DNA from: a virus
Direction: 5' to 3' (one strand)
Virus record (IMG/VR): IMGVR_UViG_3300025282_000063
Span: 1-45,838 of that record
Length of the DNA stretch: 45,838 nucleotides
Under the pieces are notes generated by a model that ran no database searches, was not told where the DNA came from, and saw only the letters and a list, made by a program, of their open reading frames with translations. The position numbers and the translations under genes are program-made. Position 1 is the first letter of the stretch. Each line of letters begins with the position of its first letter. Shown one piece after another: positions 470-23,480 of the stretch.

Positions 470-1183
470 ATGTCACAAGATAAAGTGAAGCTACCTCGCA
501 ATGATCGCTACCGCACTCAAAGTCAGGCCTTTGCTCTTATTGCTCAAATTGACGCAGATATTGCAGAAGCTCTAATACCGTTTGTCGATACCAAGGAAGC
601 GGCAAATTGGGATGCAGATTGCGCCATCGTTGCAGTGCGAGTATGGGATGCAACCACACCAGCTTTGATTGAAGTGCACAACGATGATATTCAAGCTGGT
701 AGAGGTTGCGAGGTTGCACAACGCAAGCGCATTAGCGCCGCAGTTGGTTCGTCAATTGTTGCTGAATGGTGCAAAGCTGGTAAAGGTTGCAAAAGTGCTG
801 ATACCATCAAAAAGATGATGGCCAAGCGTGATATCACGTCCATGCACTCGTTACGCAAGGAACTGGCAAGGATTGCCAAGTCCGAAAAGGCCGAAAAGAC
901 TGAGGCCGACATATTGGCTGAACTGGTAGAGGCCAATGAGAGTGCTCGCAGTCAATTGGGCATTCTAGACCCGCATGGTGTCGATGGCTTGCAAGGTCTA
1001 TTCGACAAAATGCGAAAGTTGATTCAAGAATGTGAGAGTGTACCAACGGAAGATGCGCCAATCCTTGAGGCCGCTATACTCGCCGGATTTAATAAAGTCA
1101 CAGCAGCTGCCGAAAAGCGGGAAATAGCAATCGAAAAGGCCGAAGCCAAGGCCGAGCGCCAAGCCAAAAAGAAGGCCGCCTGA
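470..1183 (+). CDS. Unknown 237-residue leftmost protein
   Basis: I do not recognise this protein. The start is an ATG 8 bases after AAGGA. It is soluble with no membrane segment. The C-terminal third is charged and helical, ending in a Lys/Ala/Glu-rich tail typical of coiled coil or nucleic-acid contact. It is the first gene of the rightward arm, stands alone between a structured leader and a very strong terminator (1193-1237), and so forms its own transcription unit. That isolation suggests a product needed at a different level or time from the early operon. An early host-takeover or regulatory role is inference only. Confidence 0.75.
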   Translation: MSQDKVKLPRNDRYRTQSQAFALIAQIDADIAEALIPFVDTKEAANWDADCAIVAVRVWDATTPALIEVHNDDIQAGRGCEVAQRKRISAAVGSSIVAEWCKAGKGCKSADTIKKMMAKRDITSMHSLRKELARIAKSEKAEKTEADILAELVEANESARSQLGILDPHGVDGLQGLFDKMRKLIQECESVPTEDAPILEAAILAGFNKVTAAAEKREIAIEKAEAKAERQAKKKAA

Positions 1184-1192
1184 CTACCAAAC

Positions 1193-1237
1193 GAGGCTAT
1201 CGGGTATCCCTAGGGATACTCGGTGGCCTCTTTTTTT
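1193..1237 (+). terminator. Strong intrinsic terminator built around the palindrome (copy 2)
   Basis: The exact palindrome at 1204-1219 is flanked by 11 bases on each side that also pair (1193-1203 with 1220-1230, mostly Watson-Crick with a few G-T pairs). This gives a 38-base near-loopless hairpin followed by seven T (1231-1237). It ends transcription 10 bases after the stop codon at 1183. The palindrome here is part of an extended RNA stem. Confidence 0.9.
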
Positions 1238-1318
1238 GTCCTTTTTTTATTTGCCTTGGATCAACATAAGACTGGGAAAGTAGGGGAAGAACGACAAATA
1301 CGAAGAAAGGCGAAGGTA

Positions 1319-1347
1319 TTGACAAAGAGTAGGATCTATGCTACGGT
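1319..1347 (+). promoter_or_regulatory. Candidate sigma70-like promoter
   Basis: A perfect TTGACA (1319-1324), a 17-base spacer, then TACGGT (1342-1347), a weak -10. It follows the terminator at 1193-1237 and would transcribe a leader containing palindrome copy 3, then the gene at 1419. Position and -35 support it; the -10 does not. Confidence 0.4.
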
Positions 1348-1382
1348 AGAGGAATCTAATAAATTAAACATCGATTGAAGGA

Positions 1383-1398
1383 GTATCCCTAGGGATAC
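1383..1398. repeat. 16-bp palindrome, copy 3
   Basis: An exact copy of the palindrome, placed in the 5' leader immediately before the GAAGGAG ribosome-binding site of the gene at 1419. As RNA it would form a hairpin touching the Shine-Dalgarno sequence. As DNA it would be a downstream operator for the promoter at 1319-1347. Confidence 0.85.
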
Positions 1399-1418
1399 CC
1401 GAAGGAGCCGGAAATAAA

Positions 1419-1676
1419 ATGACACCGAAAGAGTACAGACTTGAAAGAATAAAACGAAAGAAAGCGGTGTTTGCCAAGGGACGCCACGCTAGATTTGCCA
1501 GTGATGCTGCCAAGTCTGAGGCGAGACCAAAGCAAAGTCGCTTCACAACCACAGGCGAAGTGTGTGACGCCATGCGAGTGGCTCACACCATCGTGCTGTA
1601 CCTTGGAAACTCTGCCGCTCACAAACAGTTCTTTCAGCGGCACATAGATGGAAGGAGAAATATGATCGATCCATAG
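1419..1676 (+). CDS. Small basic protein of unknown function (85 aa)
   Basis: The ATG lies about 11 bases after GAAGGAG. The N-terminal half is strongly basic (many Lys/Arg in the first 50 residues), which suggests nucleic-acid binding. No zinc ligands or membrane segments are seen, and I do not recognise the family. The gene forms a single-gene unit, with a candidate promoter and palindrome hairpin upstream and the terminator at 1721-1758 downstream. Coding status rests on the Shine-Dalgarno site and gene-like placement, so it is moderately sure. Confidence 0.55.
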   Translation: MTPKEYRLERIKRKKAVFAKGRHARFASDAAKSEARPKQSRFTTTGEVCDAMRVAHTIVLYLGNSAAHKQFFQRHIDGRRNMIDP

Positions 1677-1720
1677 ATCGCTTCACTACCAGACTTTCCG
1701 GCCATAGGCCGATGTGGCAA

Positions 1721-1758
1721 GGCGCATGAACCATGCAGGTTCAGTGCGTCTTTTTTTT
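1721..1758 (+). terminator. Intrinsic terminator
   Basis: A 12-bp GC-rich stem (1721-1732 with 1738-1750, one bulged G) closes a 5-base loop and is followed by eight T (1751-1758). It ends transcription of the 1419-1676 gene. A smaller CGGCC-ATA-GGCCG hairpin sits about 20 bases upstream. Confidence 0.9.
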
Positions 1759-1784
1759 GGAATCAACACACAGGAAACTGAACC

Positions 1785-1991
1785 ATGATGCTACTTAATT
1801 ATGCTACCAAAAAGGAACTTAAATCTTCCATAGGTGAGCCACTGCAATACACCGAGACCTCACTATTTGGACCTGAGTACCAATCCAATGGTACATTTGT
1901 AGGCGCACGACGACCGCACTTGCAAGGTGGTGGGCGTGAATTCTTCGCTGAAGTTACCATGAAAAACGACCTTATTTCTGTAGTCAAGTAA
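1785..1991 (+). CDS. Conserved-looking small phage protein (68 aa)
   Basis: ATG at 1785 (or the adjacent ATG at 1788) follows AGGAA. The protein begins with a short helical part (ATKKELKSSIG) and continues with a Gly/Arg-rich stretch and a beta-like C-terminus. Its style resembles small hypothetical proteins seen in marine podoviruses, but I cannot name a family. Its stop codon touches the hammerhead ribozyme at 1992, so the message 3' end is expected to be made by self-cleavage rather than termination. It lies between a terminator and the ribozyme. Confidence 0.7.
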   Translation: MMLLNYATKKELKSSIGEPLQYTETSLFGPEYQSNGTFVGARRPHLQGGGREFFAEVTMKNDLISVVK

Positions 1992-2045
1992 GGCGAAACC
2001 CGTCCACTGACGGGTCGTATGGGCGTCACCCATGCCTGATGAGCC
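1992..2045 (+). ncRNA. Type II hammerhead ribozyme
   Basis: All core parts are present in type II order. Stem II 5' strand GGC (1992-1994); GAAA (1995-1998); stem III CCCGT/ACGGG (1999-2003 and 2010-2014) with a 6-base loop; U 2015, which pairs with A 1998; cleavage-site C 2016; stem I of 7 bp (2017-2023 and 2029-2035) with loop CGTCA; CTGATGA (2036-2042); stem II 3' strand GCC (2043-2045), giving the usual G10.1-C11.1 pair. Predicted cleavage is after C2016 in a GUC triplet. Stem II may extend past an internal loop using 1988-1989 and 2048-2049. Cleavage would separate the 1785-1991 message from the downstream early operon. Confidence 0.93.
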
Positions 2046-2064
2046 AGACAGCTTGCAATGAGCG

Positions 2065-2080
2065 GTATCCCTAGGGGTAC
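2065..2080. repeat. 16-bp palindrome, copy 4 (one-base variant)
   Basis: GTATCCCTAGGGGTAC differs from the other copies by A to G at position 13. In RNA this keeps pairing (U-G instead of U-A), while it breaks perfect DNA symmetry. It sits 20 bases after the ribozyme and just before the AAGGAG of the gene at 2096, so the cleaved downstream RNA would carry this hairpin near its 5' end. Confidence 0.8.
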
Positions 2081-2095
2081 CCAAGGAGAAGCATA

Positions 2096-2452
2096 GTGGC
2101 AATCTTGGATGTGGACGGTAGTTCGTTCACCAAAGAAATAACTGGGTATGACTTGTTGAAGCATCTGGTTGAACACTTCAACCTTCCCCTGGATGAGGCC
2201 AAAAATAAAATGGCCCAGGGATTGACCAGTCTGTATGTCCGGTCAAACCCTACAGTGGAACACAATAATCCTCCCGATCCTGTGGAACTATACCTTCTTC
2301 CATTAACGAGGGAACAGGTTGAACTGCTAACAGAGGCAGTCGATGACGCTCTCCCGTTATGGAAACAATACGGAAAGACAGACAGGTGGATGAAACTGCT
2401 CCAAACAGCAAACTTCCTGTCGGAACATATCTCAGGAAAGGAAGAGTGGTGA
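2096..2452 (+). CDS. Unknown early protein (118 aa), GTG start
   Basis: It starts with GTG 7 bases after AAGGAG, directly downstream of the ribozyme and palindrome hairpin. The protein is acidic and mostly helical, with no cysteine motif or membrane segment. No family is recognised. It is the first gene of a long, tightly packed rightward operon; the next gene begins 2 bases after its stop. The hairpin next to its ribosome-binding site may tune its translation. Confidence 0.75.
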   Translation: MAILDVDGSSFTKEITGYDLLKHLVEHFNLPLDEAKNKMAQGLTSLYVRSNPTVEHNNPPDPVELYLLPLTREQVELLTEAVDDALPLWKQYGKTDRWMKLLQTANFLSEHISGKEEW

Positions 2453-2453
2453 C

Positions 2454-2807
2454 ATGCTCAGAATAAGTAAGAGTCCTATCCATGAATCCCAATCAGTGGG
2501 ATTCACCTTGAAATTCTCCAACGGATGGACTGTCAGTGTTCAGTTTGGGGAGCACAACTATTGTGACAACCATGAAAATATACAATCTCTCTTTGAATAT
2601 ACAGCACGGGAGGTTGGTCCAGAAGCTGTTAGGTGTAAGAATGCCGAAGTAGCTGCATGGCATGATGTTGTTGATCCTAAAACTGGGGATAGTGAGGAAG
2701 AGTGGTACGATTTCGGCACTAACACAGTGAAAGGGTACCTAGATGCGGATGAGGTATCCGATTTCATACACATGATCCGCAACTTGGAGAAAGACTACAA
2801 TGTGTGA
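2454..2807 (+). CDS. Unknown early protein (117 aa)
   Basis: The ATG follows the previous stop by one base and the gene overlaps the next by 8 bases, so translational coupling is likely. The N-terminal half looks like an antiparallel beta fold (alternating SVGFTLKFSNG and WTVSVQFGEH). The acidic C-terminal part is helical. Similar beta-rich small proteins occur in early regions of other phages, but I cannot assign a function. Confidence 0.75.
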   Translation: MLRISKSPIHESQSVGFTLKFSNGWTVSVQFGEHNYCDNHENIQSLFEYTAREVGPEAVRCKNAEVAAWHDVVDPKTGDSEEEWYDFGTNTVKGYLDADEVSDFIHMIRNLEKDYNV

Positions 2808-3012
2808 CAATCGTGTGAGCTTTTATGTGGCAAGTGGCTATGACTATCGAGAGACACTTGTGAGATGTGGCAACACAGATCCATATGGAGATCGAGCTGT
2901 GTGTGATGTGTGTGCTGCCAATCCAGAGATTGTCGCTGGAATAGAGCGACACGAAAGGTTGATCAAGGAAGACAACGCATGGCTGCGTAGTGCAGGTCAG
3001 GGGGAAATGTAA
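2800..3012 (+). CDS. Small cysteine-containing early protein (70 aa)
   Basis: It overlaps the preceding stop by 8 bases (ATGTGTGA). Cysteines at residues 2, 23, 35 and 38, including a VCDVC pair, could bind zinc. The C-terminal half is a charged helix. I do not recognise the family. A long open frame on the opposite strand covers the same DNA but lacks a ribosome-binding site and has atypical composition, so the + strand reading is preferred. Confidence 0.65.
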   Translation: MCDNRVSFYVASGYDYRETLVRCGNTDPYGDRAVCDVCAANPEIVAGIERHERLIKEDNAWLRSAGQGEM

Positions 3013-3015
3013 CTC

Positions 3016-3330
3016 ATGTGGGTTGTAGAACATGACGGCACCTACACCTATTTCGATACTTGGAATGTCCGACTGAAAGAGGTGGAAGAATATATGGAGG
3101 AGCATGGCCTTGGCCTTGATCATCTGTATGTTACTCTGCATGGTGCGTCCCGAAAAGGTGTGCCTGTGACTGCATTTGAGGATGCCATCCAGAAGGTGGC
3201 ATATTATGATGGAAAGGAGGTCATGGAAAACCAGTTCAAACTGGATGGGCTGGAAGTAGCTGGATATTATTATACCTATGTAATATCTGATGACACATCC
3301 CAAGGAGAGCGGAGGAAAAATTATGCGTGA
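3016..3330 (+). CDS. Unknown early protein (104 aa)
   Basis: The ATG is 3 bases after the previous stop and the 3' end overlaps the start at 3323 by 8 bases. The sequence mixes beta-strand (WVVEHDGTYTYF) and helix and is rich in Tyr, Glu and Asp. No motif is recognised. Its tight packing in the early operon supports it as a real gene. Confidence 0.7.
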   Translation: MWVVEHDGTYTYFDTWNVRLKEVEEYMEEHGLGLDHLYVTLHGASRKGVPVTAFEDAIQKVAYYDGKEVMENQFKLDGLEVAGYYYTYVISDDTSQGERRKNYA

Positions 3331-3529
3331 AGCTGACCTATCCATGATTGAAGATGTAGAGCGTAGGGCAGTAAGAGAGTGGTGTAGTAAGAATGACAAG
3401 CGACAAATCCTTCTGGCGGCGCAATTCCGTAAGAATAAGTTTCGCCCACAAATTGTGACAGAAGCACTTGACAGATTTGAGTATCAAGATATGATCACTG
3501 ACTTCTGGCGGAATCGTCTGCCAGAATAA
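3323..3529 (+). CDS. Small basic helical early protein (68 aa)
   Basis: I chose the ATG at 3323 rather than the upstream in-frame ATG at 3290, because GGAGGAAAAATT lies just before 3323 and the shorter form only slightly overlaps the previous gene. The protein is a mix of acidic and basic helices with no cysteines or membrane segment. Function unknown. Confidence 0.7.
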   Translation: MREADLSMIEDVERRAVREWCSKNDKRQILLAAQFRKNKFRPQIVTEALDRFEYQDMITDFWRNRLPE

Positions 3530-3547
3530 CCAAAGGAAAGAAAAGTA

Positions 3548-4219
3548 ATGAAGCTTAGAACCGATCACTCAGCAATAACGGACAACACCACACTCTATTT
3601 GAAGAGTGTCTTTGATCCGGCTGATTATCCCTATAAGTTTATCAAGCCTGACACCGGGGCTAAACTTGGCAAGCAAGTTCGCAAAGGTAGGTGGCGGGGT
3701 ATGAAATTCTATACCCTAACGTTGGAAGAGCGAGCAACCTGTGATTCTGACTGTGAACATTGGCTTAATTGTTATGGTAACAACATGCCCTTTGCTCATA
3801 GATTCAAGGCAACCACCAACCTTACAAGCAAGATGGAACCCAACCTTGATGAGCTTGATAAGAAACATCCCACCGGATACGTAATTAGATTACATATTCT
3901 GGGGGATTTCTTCAGTGTTTCCTATGTCAAGTGGTGGGGCAAACAGCTAGCCAAGCGACCGGCTTTGCATATATACGGTTACAGTCGGCACCATCCCTTC
4001 AAACCTATAGGCAGAGCTATCCTAGCTCTTCGAGAGAAATATCCTGATAGGTTTGCGGTTCGATTTAGTAACCTTCCATCCGATAATATGTCTGCCAACT
4101 CTGAGCATGTGTCGGATGATGGTATTATATGTCCAGAACAAACCGGAAAGGCCGATAGTTGTGGTGACTGTGCCTTATGTTGGTCAACCAAGAGACCTAT
4201 AATATTTCTGGATCATTGA
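3548..4219 (+). CDS. Gp88-like phage protein with cysteine clusters (223 aa)
   Basis: The N-terminal part (LGKQVRKGRWRGMKFYTLTL followed by a CDSDCxxxxxC cluster near residues 60-72) resembles the Gene product 88 family found in phages and mobile elements. A second cluster, CGDCALC, lies near residues 205-211. The cysteines could bind zinc or an iron-sulfur cluster, so an Fe-S or radical-type enzyme cannot be excluded, but no CxxxCxxC signature is seen. AAGGAAAG precedes the ATG. The family has no established function; assignment is by motif memory and is moderate. Confidence 0.6.
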   Translation: MKLRTDHSAITDNTTLYLKSVFDPADYPYKFIKPDTGAKLGKQVRKGRWRGMKFYTLTLEERATCDSDCEHWLNCYGNNMPFAHRFKATTNLTSKMEPNLDELDKKHPTGYVIRLHILGDFFSVSYVKWWGKQLAKRPALHIYGYSRHHPFKPIGRAILALREKYPDRFAVRFSNLPSDNMSANSEHVSDDGIICPEQTGKADSCGDCALCWSTKRPIIFLDH

Positions 4220-4276
4220 CAATCAGAGTATCTTCTGTTATATGTATCTCATCTTAAATCGTAAGGAGAAAAACTA

Positions 4277-4432
4277 ATGAGTGTTCCATATCAGGAAGAC
4301 AGACTAATGCAATTAGCTGAAGATTGGTACGAACACCTAGTCCATGAAGGCTGGCCCAAGAATGATTGGGAAACATGGACTGAAGCCAGGGATCGAGCCA
4401 GAGCAGAGTGGAAGGAAGGATGTGAAAGATGA
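4277..4432 (+). CDS. Short acidic Trp-rich protein (51 aa)
   Basis: The ATG at 4277 follows TAAGGAGAAAAACTA, a strong ribosome-binding site. The frame runs 51 codons and its TGA overlaps the next ATG (ATGA at 4429-4432). The protein is acidic with five tryptophans and reads as two helices. The strong Shine-Dalgarno site and four-base overlap are good evidence for a real gene. Function unknown. Confidence 0.75.
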   Translation: MSVPYQEDRLMQLAEDWYEHLVHEGWPKNDWETWTEARDRARAEWKEGCER

Positions 4433-4653
4433 AGACCTACGTTCATATTAACCAGCATGTGATCAAGAAGAACAACAAGACAGGGGAGCGAGAGCCGCCC
4501 ATCACAGCCAAGACTTGGAAGTCAAACGAATACGGACATGAGGTCCAGATAGATGGGCCTTGCAAAGTAATTTACACCCCTGACAAGCCGCTCTCTTGCG
4601 GGGCCAGGGTGTGGATAGAAACTGAGGCAGGAGTGAGGGTACTTCAATGGTGA
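4429..4653 (+). CDS. Conserved-looking small phage protein (74 aa)
   Basis: It overlaps the previous gene by four bases. The N-terminus (MKTYVHINQHVIKKN) and C-terminus (SCGARVWIETEA) resemble a small protein common in T7-like marine phages. It is beta-rich and basic. The role in those phages is unknown to me. The next gene starts inside its 3' end, so the two are probably coupled. Confidence 0.8.
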   Translation: MKTYVHINQHVIKKNNKTGEREPPITAKTWKSNEYGHEVQIDGPCKVIYTPDKPLSCGARVWIETEAGVRVLQW

Positions 4654-4784
4654 AAAAGAAACCCCGGAAAAGAAATGTAGTGGCAGCATCACTACATTCT
4701 CCCAAGTTCAGGAAGCGTGTTGTTCCCAACAAACGAAAGGAGAAGTCCAACCAAAATAAAACTGACTATGATTTGTCTGAGTAA
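4647..4784 (+). CDS. Very basic 45-residue peptide
   Basis: The ATG at 4647 overlaps the preceding gene. The protein has about 16 Lys/Arg, begins MVKKKPRKRN and contains SPKFRKRVV, a pattern seen in small basic proteins next to the previous gene's homologues in other marine podoviruses. It probably binds nucleic acid or an acidic partner; this is inference from charge. It ends just before the promoter at 4793. Confidence 0.75.
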   Translation: MVKKKPRKRNVVAASLHSPKFRKRVVPNKRKEKSNQNKTDYDLSE

Positions 4785-4792
4785 AATAAAAC

Positions 4793-4819
4793 TTGACAAG
4801 TGGAGTATAGTAGTATAAT
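4793..4819 (+). promoter_or_regulatory. Sigma70-type promoter, short spacer
   Basis: Perfect TTGACA (4793-4798) and TATAAT (4814-4819) with a 15-base spacer, in the gap between the genes ending at 4784 and starting at 4850. The predicted start near 4826 leaves a short leader with an AGGAG site before the ATG at 4850. Both boxes are consensus, though the spacer is two bases shorter than ideal. Confidence 0.7.
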
Positions 4820-4849
4820 ATTATGTTTACTTTAACTCAGGAGAAAGAC

Positions 4850-5083
4850 ATGGGTGATCTAACTTTTCATAGTGTAACGTCCATCAAGATAAAGAAAACT
4901 GTCAAAGATGATTGGTATTCTCTTATCAAGGTGGTGATAGAGGGGGATTCTATAGATGGTCCCACTCACTTCTCAGTAAACCTCTTTGGTGAGCCGGGTC
5001 TCTCAGTAGAGACAGATGTAGTACAAATATTTAAGGGCGATGATGCCATAGAAATAAAGGAGGAGGTGAATGCAGCAGAATAA
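4850..5083 (+). CDS. Small beta-rich protein (77 aa)
   Basis: I prefer the ATG at 4850 over the in-frame ATG at 4823. It has AGGAG 7 bases upstream, and 4823 would fall at or before the predicted transcription start. The protein alternates hydrophobic and polar residues (SIKIKKTV, SLIKVVIEGD) like a small beta barrel or sheet, with an acidic C-terminus. No family is recognised. It is the first gene after the promoter at 4793-4819. Confidence 0.75.
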   Translation: MGDLTFHSVTSIKIKKTVKDDWYSLIKVVIEGDSIDGPTHFSVNLFGEPGLSVETDVVQIFKGDDAIEIKEEVNAAE

Positions 5084-5234
5084 GGTCAAGGAGATAGTTA
5101 GGTACATCAAGTACGGCCATGATACATGGCTACTCCCTCACTGGGAAGAGTTTGATGGTGACTTAGGTTACGAGATCGAATCCCTGGAGGATGGCTATGA
5201 AGATTGGATCAGCAAGGAGGTGAAGCGTGATTGA
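5070..5234 (+). CDS. Acidic 54-residue protein
   Basis: The ATG at 5070 has GGAGGAGG 4-9 bases upstream and overlaps the previous gene by 14 bases. The stop overlaps the next start (GTG at 5227). The protein is acidic and Trp/Tyr-rich in its second half. No family recognised. The strong ribosome-binding site and overlaps at both ends support it. Confidence 0.75.
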   Translation: MQQNKVKEIVRYIKYGHDTWLLPHWEEFDGDLGYEIESLEDGYEDWISKEVKRD

Positions 5235-5466
5235 TGTTATGTATAGTAAGGAAATGCCTGTTGATGAGTTTGACAGGCCGGGAGGTATGCTCAGTCTGAG
5301 TGATCTACCTATAGCTGCCTTCAAGGTGTTAACCAGAAAAGGTACCATAGATGGTTACAATAGTAATCATAAGTCTTTTTGGGTAACAGATAAGGAGACA
5401 GGTATTACCTTAAAGGTACCGTTGAGTGACGTTAAATTAATCAAGCAGGAGAATGAAGATGTTTAA
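5227..5466 (+). CDS. Unknown small protein (79 aa), GTG start
   Basis: It starts with GTG after AAGGAGGTGAAGC. An in-frame ATG four codons later has a poorer site. The C-terminal half (KVLTRKGTIDGYN, FWVTDKETGITLKVPL) reads as a small beta barrel, similar in style to RNA- or DNA-binding folds, but no motif is diagnostic. It overlaps the DUF932 gene slightly. Confidence 0.7.
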   Translation: MIDVMYSKEMPVDEFDRPGGMLSLSDLPIAAFKVLTRKGTIDGYNSNHKSFWVTDKETGITLKVPLSDVKLIKQENEDV

Positions 5467-6382
5467 TCATGATGTTATAGACTTTCAAGTTCAGAAGGTT
5501 CCACTCTACATCAATAACATGTTTGTTGGCGAGAACGGCACGTTAGATCGAGCCGACTGTCGGGAATATGGTGAGGTTCCCACTAGTATAGGTATGGGCA
5601 TAGAGAGGGACGATGGTACTATGCTGGGCATAGTCTCTGAAAATTATGAGGTCGTTCAGTACGACGACATCGTATCTCAAGTCGAGGAAGCCTTGGTCAT
5701 GTCCGGTATTGACATGGGTGATGCTGTCTTTGACACCAACGTCTATGGTGATGGATCTCAGCTTGAACTGAGAGCAAGATTCCCTGCCCATGAGCAAAGT
5801 ATTGATAACAATACTGATACTGTCGTTCCTGAGTTCTGTTTCAGGACTTCCCACAATCGAACATGGGCTAACAACGGCATGATGGGGCTGTGGCGTTCCA
5901 TGTGCTATAATACGCTTGTCAATGGTAACAAGCTTGCCTACATGTATGGGCGACACACCAAGAACTTCCATGTTCCATCGTTTGCTGCCAAGGTTAGGGG
6001 AGCGGCTAAGTACATTGCCAATGATGGTATTAACACCATGAGAGTATGGTATAATACCAAGGTGGGGAGAGATCAGGTTGTTAATCTTTTCACTAATACA
6101 CTGGCTGCTCGCATGGACAACGTGAAGAGGGAGAAGGTGGCCAACAAGGTGATGCTCTCCAACCTCATGAAGACCTTCGATGAGGAGAACAGACACCTCA
6201 TTGGAAGGGGTCGCTATGAGGGCTATGGCAAGCGGAATGAAGGTACACTCTGGACTGCCTATCAGGCGGCTACCTTCTGGTCAACACACACCGACAAACC
6301 CAGCACCAAGGTCTTGAGAGAAGACAAGGTACGCAAGATGTTAACGTCACCGAAGTGGAAAGCATTGGAGGAAGCGGCATGA
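5459..6382 (+). CDS. DUF932 family protein (307 aa)
   Basis: The middle N-terminal motif GIERDDGTMLGIVSENYEVVQ and the following pattern match the DUF932 family, common on phages, plasmids and other mobile elements and still without an established biochemical role. Length (about 310 residues) is normal and no domain seems missing. I chose ATG 5459 because AGGAG is 7 bases upstream; ATG 5453 would be only 2 bases from it. The gene overlaps its upstream neighbour and is followed by small genes without a gap. GC content is higher than in the flanking small genes. Confidence 0.85.
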   Translation: MFNHDVIDFQVQKVPLYINNMFVGENGTLDRADCREYGEVPTSIGMGIERDDGTMLGIVSENYEVVQYDDIVSQVEEALVMSGIDMGDAVFDTNVYGDGSQLELRARFPAHEQSIDNNTDTVVPEFCFRTSHNRTWANNGMMGLWRSMCYNTLVNGNKLAYMYGRHTKNFHVPSFAAKVRGAAKYIANDGINTMRVWYNTKVGRDQVVNLFTNTLAARMDNVKREKVANKVMLSNLMKTFDEENRHLIGRGRYEGYGKRNEGTLWTAYQAATFWSTHTDKPSTKVLREDKVRKMLTSPKWKALEEAA

Positions 6383-13182: not shown

Positions 13183-14043
13183 ATGAAAAAAATAGAAACG
13201 CTGGTCGAAGACATATATAATTTGTTTACCTTAGACCCCATTGATATGGATGAGGATGAGGTGGACAAACATATAGATACCTTTGGTGAGATGCTTAAAA
13301 TACACATCAAAGATTTTCTGTATGATAAGCCAAGGGATAGAGCTACCCTTCGATTGTCTACCATTGGAAAGCCTGATAGACAGCTTTGGTACGATCTGAA
13401 TAAACCACTGGAGGATGGTCAACTACAACCCTCCACCCGAATAAAGTTTTTGTATGGATATATTCTTGAAGAATTACTTCTTCTTTGTACCGCCATTGCA
13501 GGTCATGAAGTAACCGATCAGCAAAAGGAAGTTGAGGTAGCTGGTGTGAAGGGTCACCAAGACTCCATGATTGATGGAGTTCTAGTTGATTGTAAGTCTG
13601 CCAGTGGTCCAGGCTTTGATAAGTTCAGATATAATAAACTGGTGGAGGATGATCCGTTCGGTTACCTCGCTCAGATATCAGCCTATGCCCATGCCAATGG
13701 TGTTGAACGAGCTGCATTTCTTGTGATAAATAAATCAACAGGAGAAATATGTTTGACTCCTGTACAGCAGATGGATATGATTAATGCAAAAACCCGTGTG
13801 GAATACCTTAAAGGAATGGTTACAGACAGCCGTATACCTGACAGGTGTTATGATGCTGTGCCTGATGGGAAGTCTGGTAATTATAAGCTTTCTGTTGGTT
13901 GTATTTATTGTGGGCATAAAAGAGAATGCTGGAAGGATGCCAACTATGGCCAAGGAATTCGTGTGTTCAGTTATGCAAAAGGGAAGAGGTATCTTACACA
14001 GGTTGGCAAAGAACCTGACGTAGAAGAAGTACTCAATTGGTAA
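13183..14043 (+). CDS. Cas4/RecB-like PD-(D/E)XK exonuclease (286 aa)
   Basis: Catalytic pattern: Asp131 (MIDGVL), Asp136-x-Lys138 (VDCK), and a downstream AQISAYAH with the QxxxY spacing of RecB-family nucleases. A C-terminal CIYCGHKRECW cysteine set resembles the Fe-S-binding end of Cas4/AddB nucleases, though the fourth Cys must come from elsewhere. The likely role is 5'-3' exonuclease in recombination and host DNA breakdown, replacing T7 gp6. Starts 5 bases after the terminator T-run, with a poor ribosome-binding site. Confidence 0.85.
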   Translation: MKKIETLVEDIYNLFTLDPIDMDEDEVDKHIDTFGEMLKIHIKDFLYDKPRDRATLRLSTIGKPDRQLWYDLNKPLEDGQLQPSTRIKFLYGYILEELLLLCTAIAGHEVTDQQKEVEVAGVKGHQDSMIDGVLVDCKSASGPGFDKFRYNKLVEDDPFGYLAQISAYAHANGVERAAFLVINKSTGEICLTPVQQMDMINAKTRVEYLKGMVTDSRIPDRCYDAVPDGKSGNYKLSVGCIYCGHKRECWKDANYGQGIRVFSYAKGKRYLTQVGKEPDVEEVLNW

Positions 14044-14432
14044 TGCACTGGAAATATCACAAGGAATTAGATACCAAAAAGAACTTTGGGTTTGTCTATG
14101 TTATAACTAATAAAAAAACCACCAAGGCTTACATTGGTTGTAAGCAATACTATATAAAACGTGGACTGAGAAAGAAAGAGTCTGGTTGGGAAACTTATAT
14201 GGGTTCTTCCAAGAACCTTCTGGAAGATATAGAAAAACTAGGCAAGGATAACTTTACATTTGAAATTATAGATGAGTATAAAAATAAAAGAAGTTTAAAC
14301 TATTATGAGTGTTATCATCAGATGATTAGACATGTCCTTACAACAACAATAGAAGGAACAGATGAACCAGCCTACTACAATAATTATGTGGGAGGTAAAT
14401 TCTATAGACCTGTTCAGAAGTATGTTGAGTGA
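14043..14432 (+). CDS. GIY-YIG nuclease-domain protein (129 aa)
   Basis: GFVYVITNK near residue 15 and KAYIGCKQYY ten residues later form the GIY-YIG signature. The ATG overlaps the exonuclease stop (TAATG). It is short, without an obvious DNA-recognition domain, as in free-standing phage homing or repair endonucleases. It is AT-rich and basic compared with the genes before it, consistent with a mobile insertion. The 3' end overlaps the next open frame by about 70 bases. Confidence 0.8.
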   Translation: MHWKYHKELDTKKNFGFVYVITNKKTTKAYIGCKQYYIKRGLRKKESGWETYMGSSKNLLEDIEKLGKDNFTFEIIDEYKNKRSLNYYECYHQMIRHVLTTTIEGTDEPAYYNNYVGGKFYRPVQKYVE

Positions 14433-21369: not shown

Positions 21370-22248
21370 ATGAGACATCTCCTATCCATAGAAGAGTATG
21401 ATAAGGATAGTCTTCTGTCCCTGTTCAATCTTGCCCAGCACTATCAGATCGGTGGTCAAAATCGATCTCTATTTTTTGATAGAGACAAATCTACCAAGAT
21501 ACTGGCCAATCTTTTCTATGAGCCGTCCACCAGAACAAGTTCAAGCTTCTTTGCGGCCATGAAAAAATTAGGCTATGATGTCCTGCCAATTAATAGAGTA
21601 CAATACTCCAGTGTTACCAAGGGTGAGAGCCTGGAAGACACAGTGCGAACTCTGGGATGTTATGTTGATGCCATAGCTCTGCGACATCCCGAAGTAGGAT
21701 CGGCCCAGAGAGCTGCCCAGGTATCCACCGTTCCAATTATTAATGCCGGGGATGGTACAGGAGAACATCCCACACAGACGCTGACGGATCTATATACAAT
21801 TTGGAGGAAGTTTGGCCGCTTGGATAATCTTACTATAACGATGATGGGTGATCTGAAGAATGGTCGAACCATACACAGTCTACTTAATATTCTAAGACTA
21901 TTCAATGTTAAGATCCAACTGGTAAGTCCCGATAATCTTACCGCTCCTTTTCAATATGCTCATGGGATAAATGTATATGCTTCGGGATATCTCACAAAGT
22001 TTGTGACGGGACAAACAGATGTCCTGTACATGACCAGAGTTCAGGAAGAGAGAGGCTCAAGCGGTGAGTATGAACTGACCGAGGGAGATGTGGCTAACTT
22101 CAAAGAAAATATGATTGTTCTTCATCCCTTTCCTCGCAATAAAGAAATACCTACATGGTTTGATACAGATCCCAGAGCTTACTATTTCAAGCAAATAAAA
22201 AATGGATTATATGTGCGTATGGCTATCCTGTCCAAGATACTGGAATAA
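21370..22248 (+). CDS. pyrB: Aspartate carbamoyltransferase (292 aa)
   Basis: Catalyses carbamoyl phosphate plus aspartate to N-carbamoyl-aspartate, the committed step of pyrimidine synthesis. Catalytic and binding motifs of ATCases are all present: STRTS (53-57), KGESLEDT with Lys84, HPTQ (133-136), GDLKNGRTIHS, TRVQEER and HPFPR. Length is close to E. coli PyrB (311). No regulatory chain gene (pyrI) is next to it. Context (RNR, terminase, holin) suggests a phage metabolic gene that raises nucleotide supply. The ribosome-binding site is weak. OTCase is less likely because of the RVQ and HPFPR patterns. Confidence 0.9.
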   Translation: MRHLLSIEEYDKDSLLSLFNLAQHYQIGGQNRSLFFDRDKSTKILANLFYEPSTRTSSSFFAAMKKLGYDVLPINRVQYSSVTKGESLEDTVRTLGCYVDAIALRHPEVGSAQRAAQVSTVPIINAGDGTGEHPTQTLTDLYTIWRKFGRLDNLTITMMGDLKNGRTIHSLLNILRLFNVKIQLVSPDNLTAPFQYAHGINVYASGYLTKFVTGQTDVLYMTRVQEERGSSGEYELTEGDVANFKENMIVLHPFPRNKEIPTWFDTDPRAYYFKQIKNGLYVRMAILSKILE

Positions 22249-23201: not shown

Positions 23202-23480
23202 TTAGTAATATGGGTGTACTATTTCCCCTTCTTCATGGCTTAGACTAGTAACATCCCCCGGAAAGAAGTTCATTAGTGTATTCTCCACCCCGATCTTGAG
23301 GGTGAAGATGCTGGCTGAACATCCTGCACATGATCCACTGAGCTTGACATGCACATTGCCTGTCTCTGCATCATAGTTCAACAACTCAATAGACCCACCA
23401 TGCATTGCAAGCATGGGTCCAATGTGTTCAGTCAGAACACCATCTATATCTTCACTGGTAGTTACCAAAACAAATAACAA
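23202..23480 (-). CDS. Nfu-type iron-sulfur scaffold domain protein
   Basis: Sequence from about residue 8 matches the NifU C-terminal/Nfu domain: IGPMLAMHGGSIELL, GNVHVKLSGSCAGCSAS (Cys51 and Cys54 as CxxC) and LKIGVENTL. Nfu proteins dimerise and carry [4Fe-4S] clusters to target proteins. No ATG precedes the domain. The frame opens after a TAG, and only TTG codons (23480, 23468) lie before it, both poorly spaced from AGGA. Reading begins inside the 29-residue membrane peptide of another frame, so coupling or frameshifting is possible. It is the last gene of the leftward arm. Confidence 0.75.
   Translation of the reverse strand: MLFVLVTTSEDIDGVLTEHIGPMLAMHGGSIELLNYDAETGNVHVKLSGSCAGCSASIFTLKIGVENTLMNFFPGDVTSLSHEEGEIVHPYY

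Follow-up and report, generated by a model that had tools for sequence, protein, structure and literature searches.

The window analysed here is the whole 45,838-nt stretch of IMG/VR virus record IMGVR_UViG_3300025282_000063, and in its first 2.5 kb two co-directional early genes flank a small RNA element. The upstream gene (1785..1991, + strand) encodes a conserved 68-aa phage protein without assigned function (PHROG 37117, E = 8.8e-25) and ends with the stop codon TAA at 1989-1991. The downstream gene (2096..2452, + strand) starts with GTG and encodes a 118-aa protein without a family match, whose relatives were found in one contig that is near-identical and, at 85% identity, in a related phage (L152/L234, IMGVR_UViG_3300003690_000308, hereafter L234). 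The interval between them holds, on the same strand, a type II hammerhead with a conserved 3' tail (1991..2053), the imperfect palindrome GGTATCCCTAGGGGTACC (2064..2081) and the ribosome-binding site AAGGAG (2083..2088) that serves the downstream gene.

Read from 1992 on the + strand, the element begins with the 5' strand of stem II (GGC, 1992..1994), followed by the core GAAA(C), with GAAA at 1995..1998 and its last A serving as the first base of stem III. Stem III is a 7-bp hairpin (1998..2015; 1998-2004 paired with 2009-2015, loop CACU) that runs into the GUC triplet (2014..2016), and the family consensus predicts cleavage at 2016/2017. Stem I, also a 7-bp hairpin (2017..2035; 2017-2023 paired with 2029-2035, loop CGUCA at 2024-2028), leads to the core CUGAUGA (2036..2042) and the 3' strand of stem II (GCC, 2043..2045), which pairs with 1992..1994. 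These parts, placed by alignment to the family model, by folding or directly in the sequence, lie together with the TAA exactly where an earlier note on the same letters had put them.

Scanned in full against the 4227 families of Rfam, the window returned Hammerhead_II (RF02276) as the sole credible RNA family, at 1991-2053 (+) with 39.2 bits (E = 1.3e-4). This is above the curated gathering score of 37 bits, so that the covariance-model search proposed in the earlier note came out in favour of its call. A search with this single family found one copy in the 45.8-kb record (E = 3.1e-8), and none of 14 control genomes had a match. The hammerhead core is complete (C3 U4 G5 A6 N7 G8 A9, G12 A13 A14, A15.1-U16.1 and H17), and the core-adjacent pairs of stems I, II and III (G2017-C2035, C1994-G2043 and A1998-U2015) are intact with no mispairs. 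Fold and model alignment agree on the permuted order of type II, with stem II open and loops closing stems I and III. The minimum-energy fold of 1992-2045 was the three-way hammerhead, pair for pair (-22.5 kcal/mol, z = -2.1). In a longer stretch of 135 nt (1976-2110) the predicted optimum retained stems I and III and lacked the 3-bp stem II, which is expected because tertiary contacts that the program does not model hold the motif together.

A feature absent from the earlier note is a 3-bp pseudoknot between GUC in loop I (2025-2027) and GAC in the tail (2047..2049). Such pairing of loop I with the bases directly after stem II is usual, if not universal, in type II hammerheads, as described by Perreault et al. 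(PMC3088659). The middle pair of the pseudoknot is U-A in the window and in L234 and C-G (GCC/GGC) in two further sequences, L030 and L235. Only this middle pair of the two sequences counts as evidence for the pseudoknot, because the pattern by which L030 and L235 were found had preset the outer letters of loop and tail, leaving the middle ones open. Stem I showed compensating changes at 5 of its 7 pairs among the four sequences, and in their alignment, pseudoknot included, 97% of cells were paired, compared with 24-36% when the partners were slid by 1-3 columns. The covariation that the earlier note had wanted to see in relatives is thus present in both stem I and the pseudoknot; with four sequences the evidence is modest in size yet consistent. 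The same loop-tail pairing emerged from 87 viral type II hammerheads, among the matches listed, whose loops measure 5 nt or more; there the helix averaged 4.55 against 3.42 for shuffled partners, a value reached in 0 of 500 shuffles.

The pseudoknot also changes the extent of the element. The earlier note had drawn it as 1992-2045, which stands for the core; its right-hand end does not, since the functional unit reaches 2053 with the pseudoknot strand and conserved tail. A longer stem II holding the TAA in an internal loop, likewise suggested there, can be drawn (CAAG 1985-1988 with CTTG 2052-2055) but is not preserved in L234 and therefore lacks support. Taken together, the curated model, the fold, the conservation in L234 and the covariation support the reading of this element, which separates two early genes in an uncultured phage, as a bona fide type II hammerhead. 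Its kind is already known: it joins the type II hammerheads described before, and no new mechanism emerges from the analysis.

We compared the locus with that of L234, in which the ribozyme occupies the same interval, between a relative of window 1543-1759 and the 118-aa gene. Over 1991-2053, 61 of 63 bases are the same (96.8%), compared with 83-91% for nearby coding DNA, and this conservation stops at 2053, directly past the pseudoknot strand. One of the two differences falls in loop III; the other, G2034A, replaces a U.G pair in stem I by Watson-Crick U-A. The direct neighbours differ. The adjacent upstream gene of L234 ends in GGAGAAGCATAG, the G of its stop codon TAG being at the same time the opening G of stem II, and the adjacent downstream gene is short, with an ATG about 25 nt past stem II. 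The ribozyme therefore stays while its flanking genes change.

Nor does the ribozyme follow the 68-aa gene. Relatives of this gene were found by tblastn in phages of Rhodobacter, Erythrobacter, Roseobacter, Pseudomonas, Tunturiibacter and Pelagibacter. Among 24 viral loci carrying it, the ribozyme was present only in a near-identical contig (L006; L001-L015 were examined by pattern scan), and five named phages with relatives of the gene had no hammerhead behind it. We accordingly rejected a tie between the two. DNA similarity searches of 50,697 phage records gave no hit, whether for the 4-kb region or for the 76-nt ribozyme, a long exact string of the ribozyme was absent from 84,980 species genomes, and no relatives of the 237-aa product of the first gene were found in viral contigs.

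The position of the window's ribozyme between a stop and a start was compared with that of other type II hammerheads, defined by the consensus core and a 3-bp stem II. This pattern occurred in at least 120 viral contigs and in 85 stretches of the 84,980 species genomes; the earlier note had considered type II hammerheads rare in annotated phage genomes, and in uncultivated phages they are not. Requiring at least 4 bp in stem III and at least 3 bp in stem I, with identical copies removed, left 135 viral ribozymes (among the matches listed, from the first 120 contigs found and not a random sample) and 62 genomic ones. A stop was scored when a same-strand reading frame of at least 60 codons ended between -3 and +10 nt from the first G, and a start when an open frame whose start codon had a ribosome-binding site began 10-40 nt after stem II. 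The null was drawn from random same-strand places in the same loci, coding positions included. With frames assigned mechanically, so that some may not be genes, a stop was found near the ribozyme start in 87 of 127 viral cases among the matches listed (69%; 6.0% at random) and in 38 of 60 genomic cases (63%; 6.8% at random). A start with a ribosome-binding site followed in about 55% of both sets (73/132 viral, among the matches listed, 6.2% at random; 33/59 genomic, 7.1% at random). Stop and start occurred together in 47 of 124 viral cases among the matches listed, compared with 0.6%, and in 26 of 57 genomic cases, compared with 0.4%. The same test read on the opposite strand gave 19 and 2 of the 135 viral matches listed and 6 and 0 of the 62 genomic ones, and the picture was unchanged with one ribozyme per viral contig among the matches listed. 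In the window the upstream spacing is 0 nt, a value seen in 19 ribozymes of the set among the matches listed, window included, and the downstream leader of 50 nt is longer than the 10-40 nt of the layout.

By these counts, most of the roughly 200 type II hammerheads compared occupy the space from a gene's stop codon to the following start, as cutters of polycistronic transcripts would. The searchable text of Perreault et al. (PMC3088659) describes hammerheads flanking genes or gene blocks and does not mention stop codons; the stop-ribozyme-start count is an addition of the present analysis, and the layout may have been reported by others.

We favour, with a probability of roughly 0.8, the reading of the element as a cutter that would divide a longer phage transcript into mRNAs that decay apart from each other and have hairpins at both new ends. 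A cut at 2016/2017 that separates two mRNAs would agree with the layout common to most relatives. The ribozyme would fold when the region is clear of ribosomes, the pseudoknot of loop I and tail would dock stems I and II side by side, and cleavage would follow after C2016. This would leave the upstream mRNA with a terminal stem III hairpin and a 2',3'-cyclic phosphate just past its stop codon; on the downstream mRNA the new 5' end would carry a hydroxyl and the stem I hairpin, some 80 nt ahead of the GTG start. Since stems I and III are both closed, both new ends would be capped by hairpins, an outcome possible only in type II. During mRNA decay in bacteria, 3' exonucleases are held back by a 3' hairpin, and enzymes requiring a free 5' phosphate act poorly on an end that has a 5'-hydroxyl and a 5' hairpin. 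The job is likely to be the separation of neighbouring early mRNAs for independent decay, and the stop codon at the border would prevent ribosomes from running on into the ribozyme and unfolding it. Cleavage in vitro has been published for type II hammerheads of the same consensus, and cleavage in E. coli for a prophage cluster (PMC3088659). Several points speak against this reading: the 3-bp pseudoknot is below the at least 4 bp common in the family, stem II is lost in the 1976-2110 fold, other phages with relatives of the 68-aa gene have no ribozyme there, and the stretch ahead of the gene at 1785 shows no promoter-like site. Perreault et al. had described the link to phages and a role in the cutting of long phage transcripts in 2011 (PMC3088659), and a 2017 review called the function of prokaryotic hammerheads an open question (PMC6155905). 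A ribozyme kept amid different genes, together with a layout counted in two collections, favours a selected job in separating neighbouring mRNAs.

The RNA carrying the ribozyme may arise by read-through. A hairpin with a T-run was seen by eye at about 1717-1757, the counterpart in L234 being a cleaner terminator, and no promoter-like site was found between this hairpin and the gene at 1785. The earlier note had also expected the cut to form the 5' end of the early operon; for the operon as a whole this is uncertain, because better promoter-like sites lie downstream, at 3468-3495 and 4793-4821.

The flush stop codon admits another explanation, in which translation gates the ribozyme. A ribosome terminating at this stop codon would cover stem II and part of stem III and leave the ribozyme unfolded, so that the RNA would be cut only in the absence of upstream translation and mRNA separation would be coupled to translation of the upstream gene. 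The direct abutment in the window, the one-base overlap in L234 despite a different upstream gene and the frequency of nearby stops in both collections agree with this. The compactness of phage genomes and the need to prevent ribosomes from running on into the ribozyme are enough to account for the same placement; we consider such gating unlikely. A shade less probable is its generalization, in which phage type II hammerheads form a standard module of stop, ribozyme, ribosome-binding site and start, with folding ruled by ribosomes terminating at the flush stop and genes exchangeable around it. If true, the ribozyme would report translation of the upstream gene. That the element is instead a relic or selfish RNA of no benefit to the phage is in keeping with neighbours that differ between relatives and with a single copy in the record, but its shared syntenic interval in both phages, conservation above the surrounding coding DNA and changes that keep pairing make this very improbable. 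Chance resemblance deserves next to no credence: weak sub-threshold matches in coding sequence do exist, such as a candidate second hammerhead in a related contig (L155, 28.7 bits) that we rejected as lying inside a reading frame and lacking the GAAA core, whereas the window's element has a complete core, a score above the curated cut-off, a low E value, conservation and covariation.

Three known systems come closest. As in RF02276 and the type II hammerheads of Perreault et al. 2011 (PMC3088659), the window's element has the permuted order, an open and short stem II, CUGAUGA/GAAA, GUC, a pseudoknot, a phage setting and a proposed role in cutting long phage transcripts. Unlike the type II hammerheads described there, it is a single copy and not part of a cluster, and it has a shorter pseudoknot, a palindrome ahead of the ribosome-binding site and a longer leader. 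The 38-kb phage contig L030 (IMGVR_UViG_3300036832_000354) shares the window's pseudoknot class (loop CGNCA, tail AGNCA) and carries nine type II matches within 4.6 kb (1017-5627), four of them above the cut-off, compared with one in the window. The HHphage variant of haloviruses HF1/HF2, as given in PMC3088659, likewise directly precedes a phage gene of the early class, with 13 nt left to a helicase start, and primer extension placed a major transcript end no more than 3 nt from its cleavage site; it differs in having a core variant and a virus of archaea as its setting, whereas the window has the consensus core.

The imperfect palindrome at 2064-2081 is one of four, none of which lies beyond the window's first 2.1 kb; the others are perfect 16-mers, GTATCCCTAGGGATAC, at 293-308, 1204-1219 and 1383-1398. 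In L234 another palindrome that shares this centre, TTGTACCTAGGTACAA or its 14-mer core, occurs seven times, at 5395, 5608, 6415, 6612, 7170, 7405 and 9746, and three of these copies are followed by the identical ribosome-binding site ACCAAGGAGAA. The palindromes may be repressor-binding sites, or RNA hairpins ahead of a ribosome-binding site, whose specificity has diverged. At 1193-1230 (+) a strong terminator-like hairpin of 17 pairs followed by seven T has one of the palindromes at its tip, so this site could act as terminator and binding site at once.

Elsewhere in the window, 14037-14432 (+) holds a SegE-like GIY-YIG endonuclease gene, its product probably a homing endonuclease, and 23202-23480 (-) encodes a small protein resembling the iron-sulfur carrier NifU. 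A complete aspartate/ornithine carbamoyltransferase-like protein of 292 aa with both Pfam domains is encoded at 21370-22248 (+) and is a possible helper of pyrimidine synthesis.
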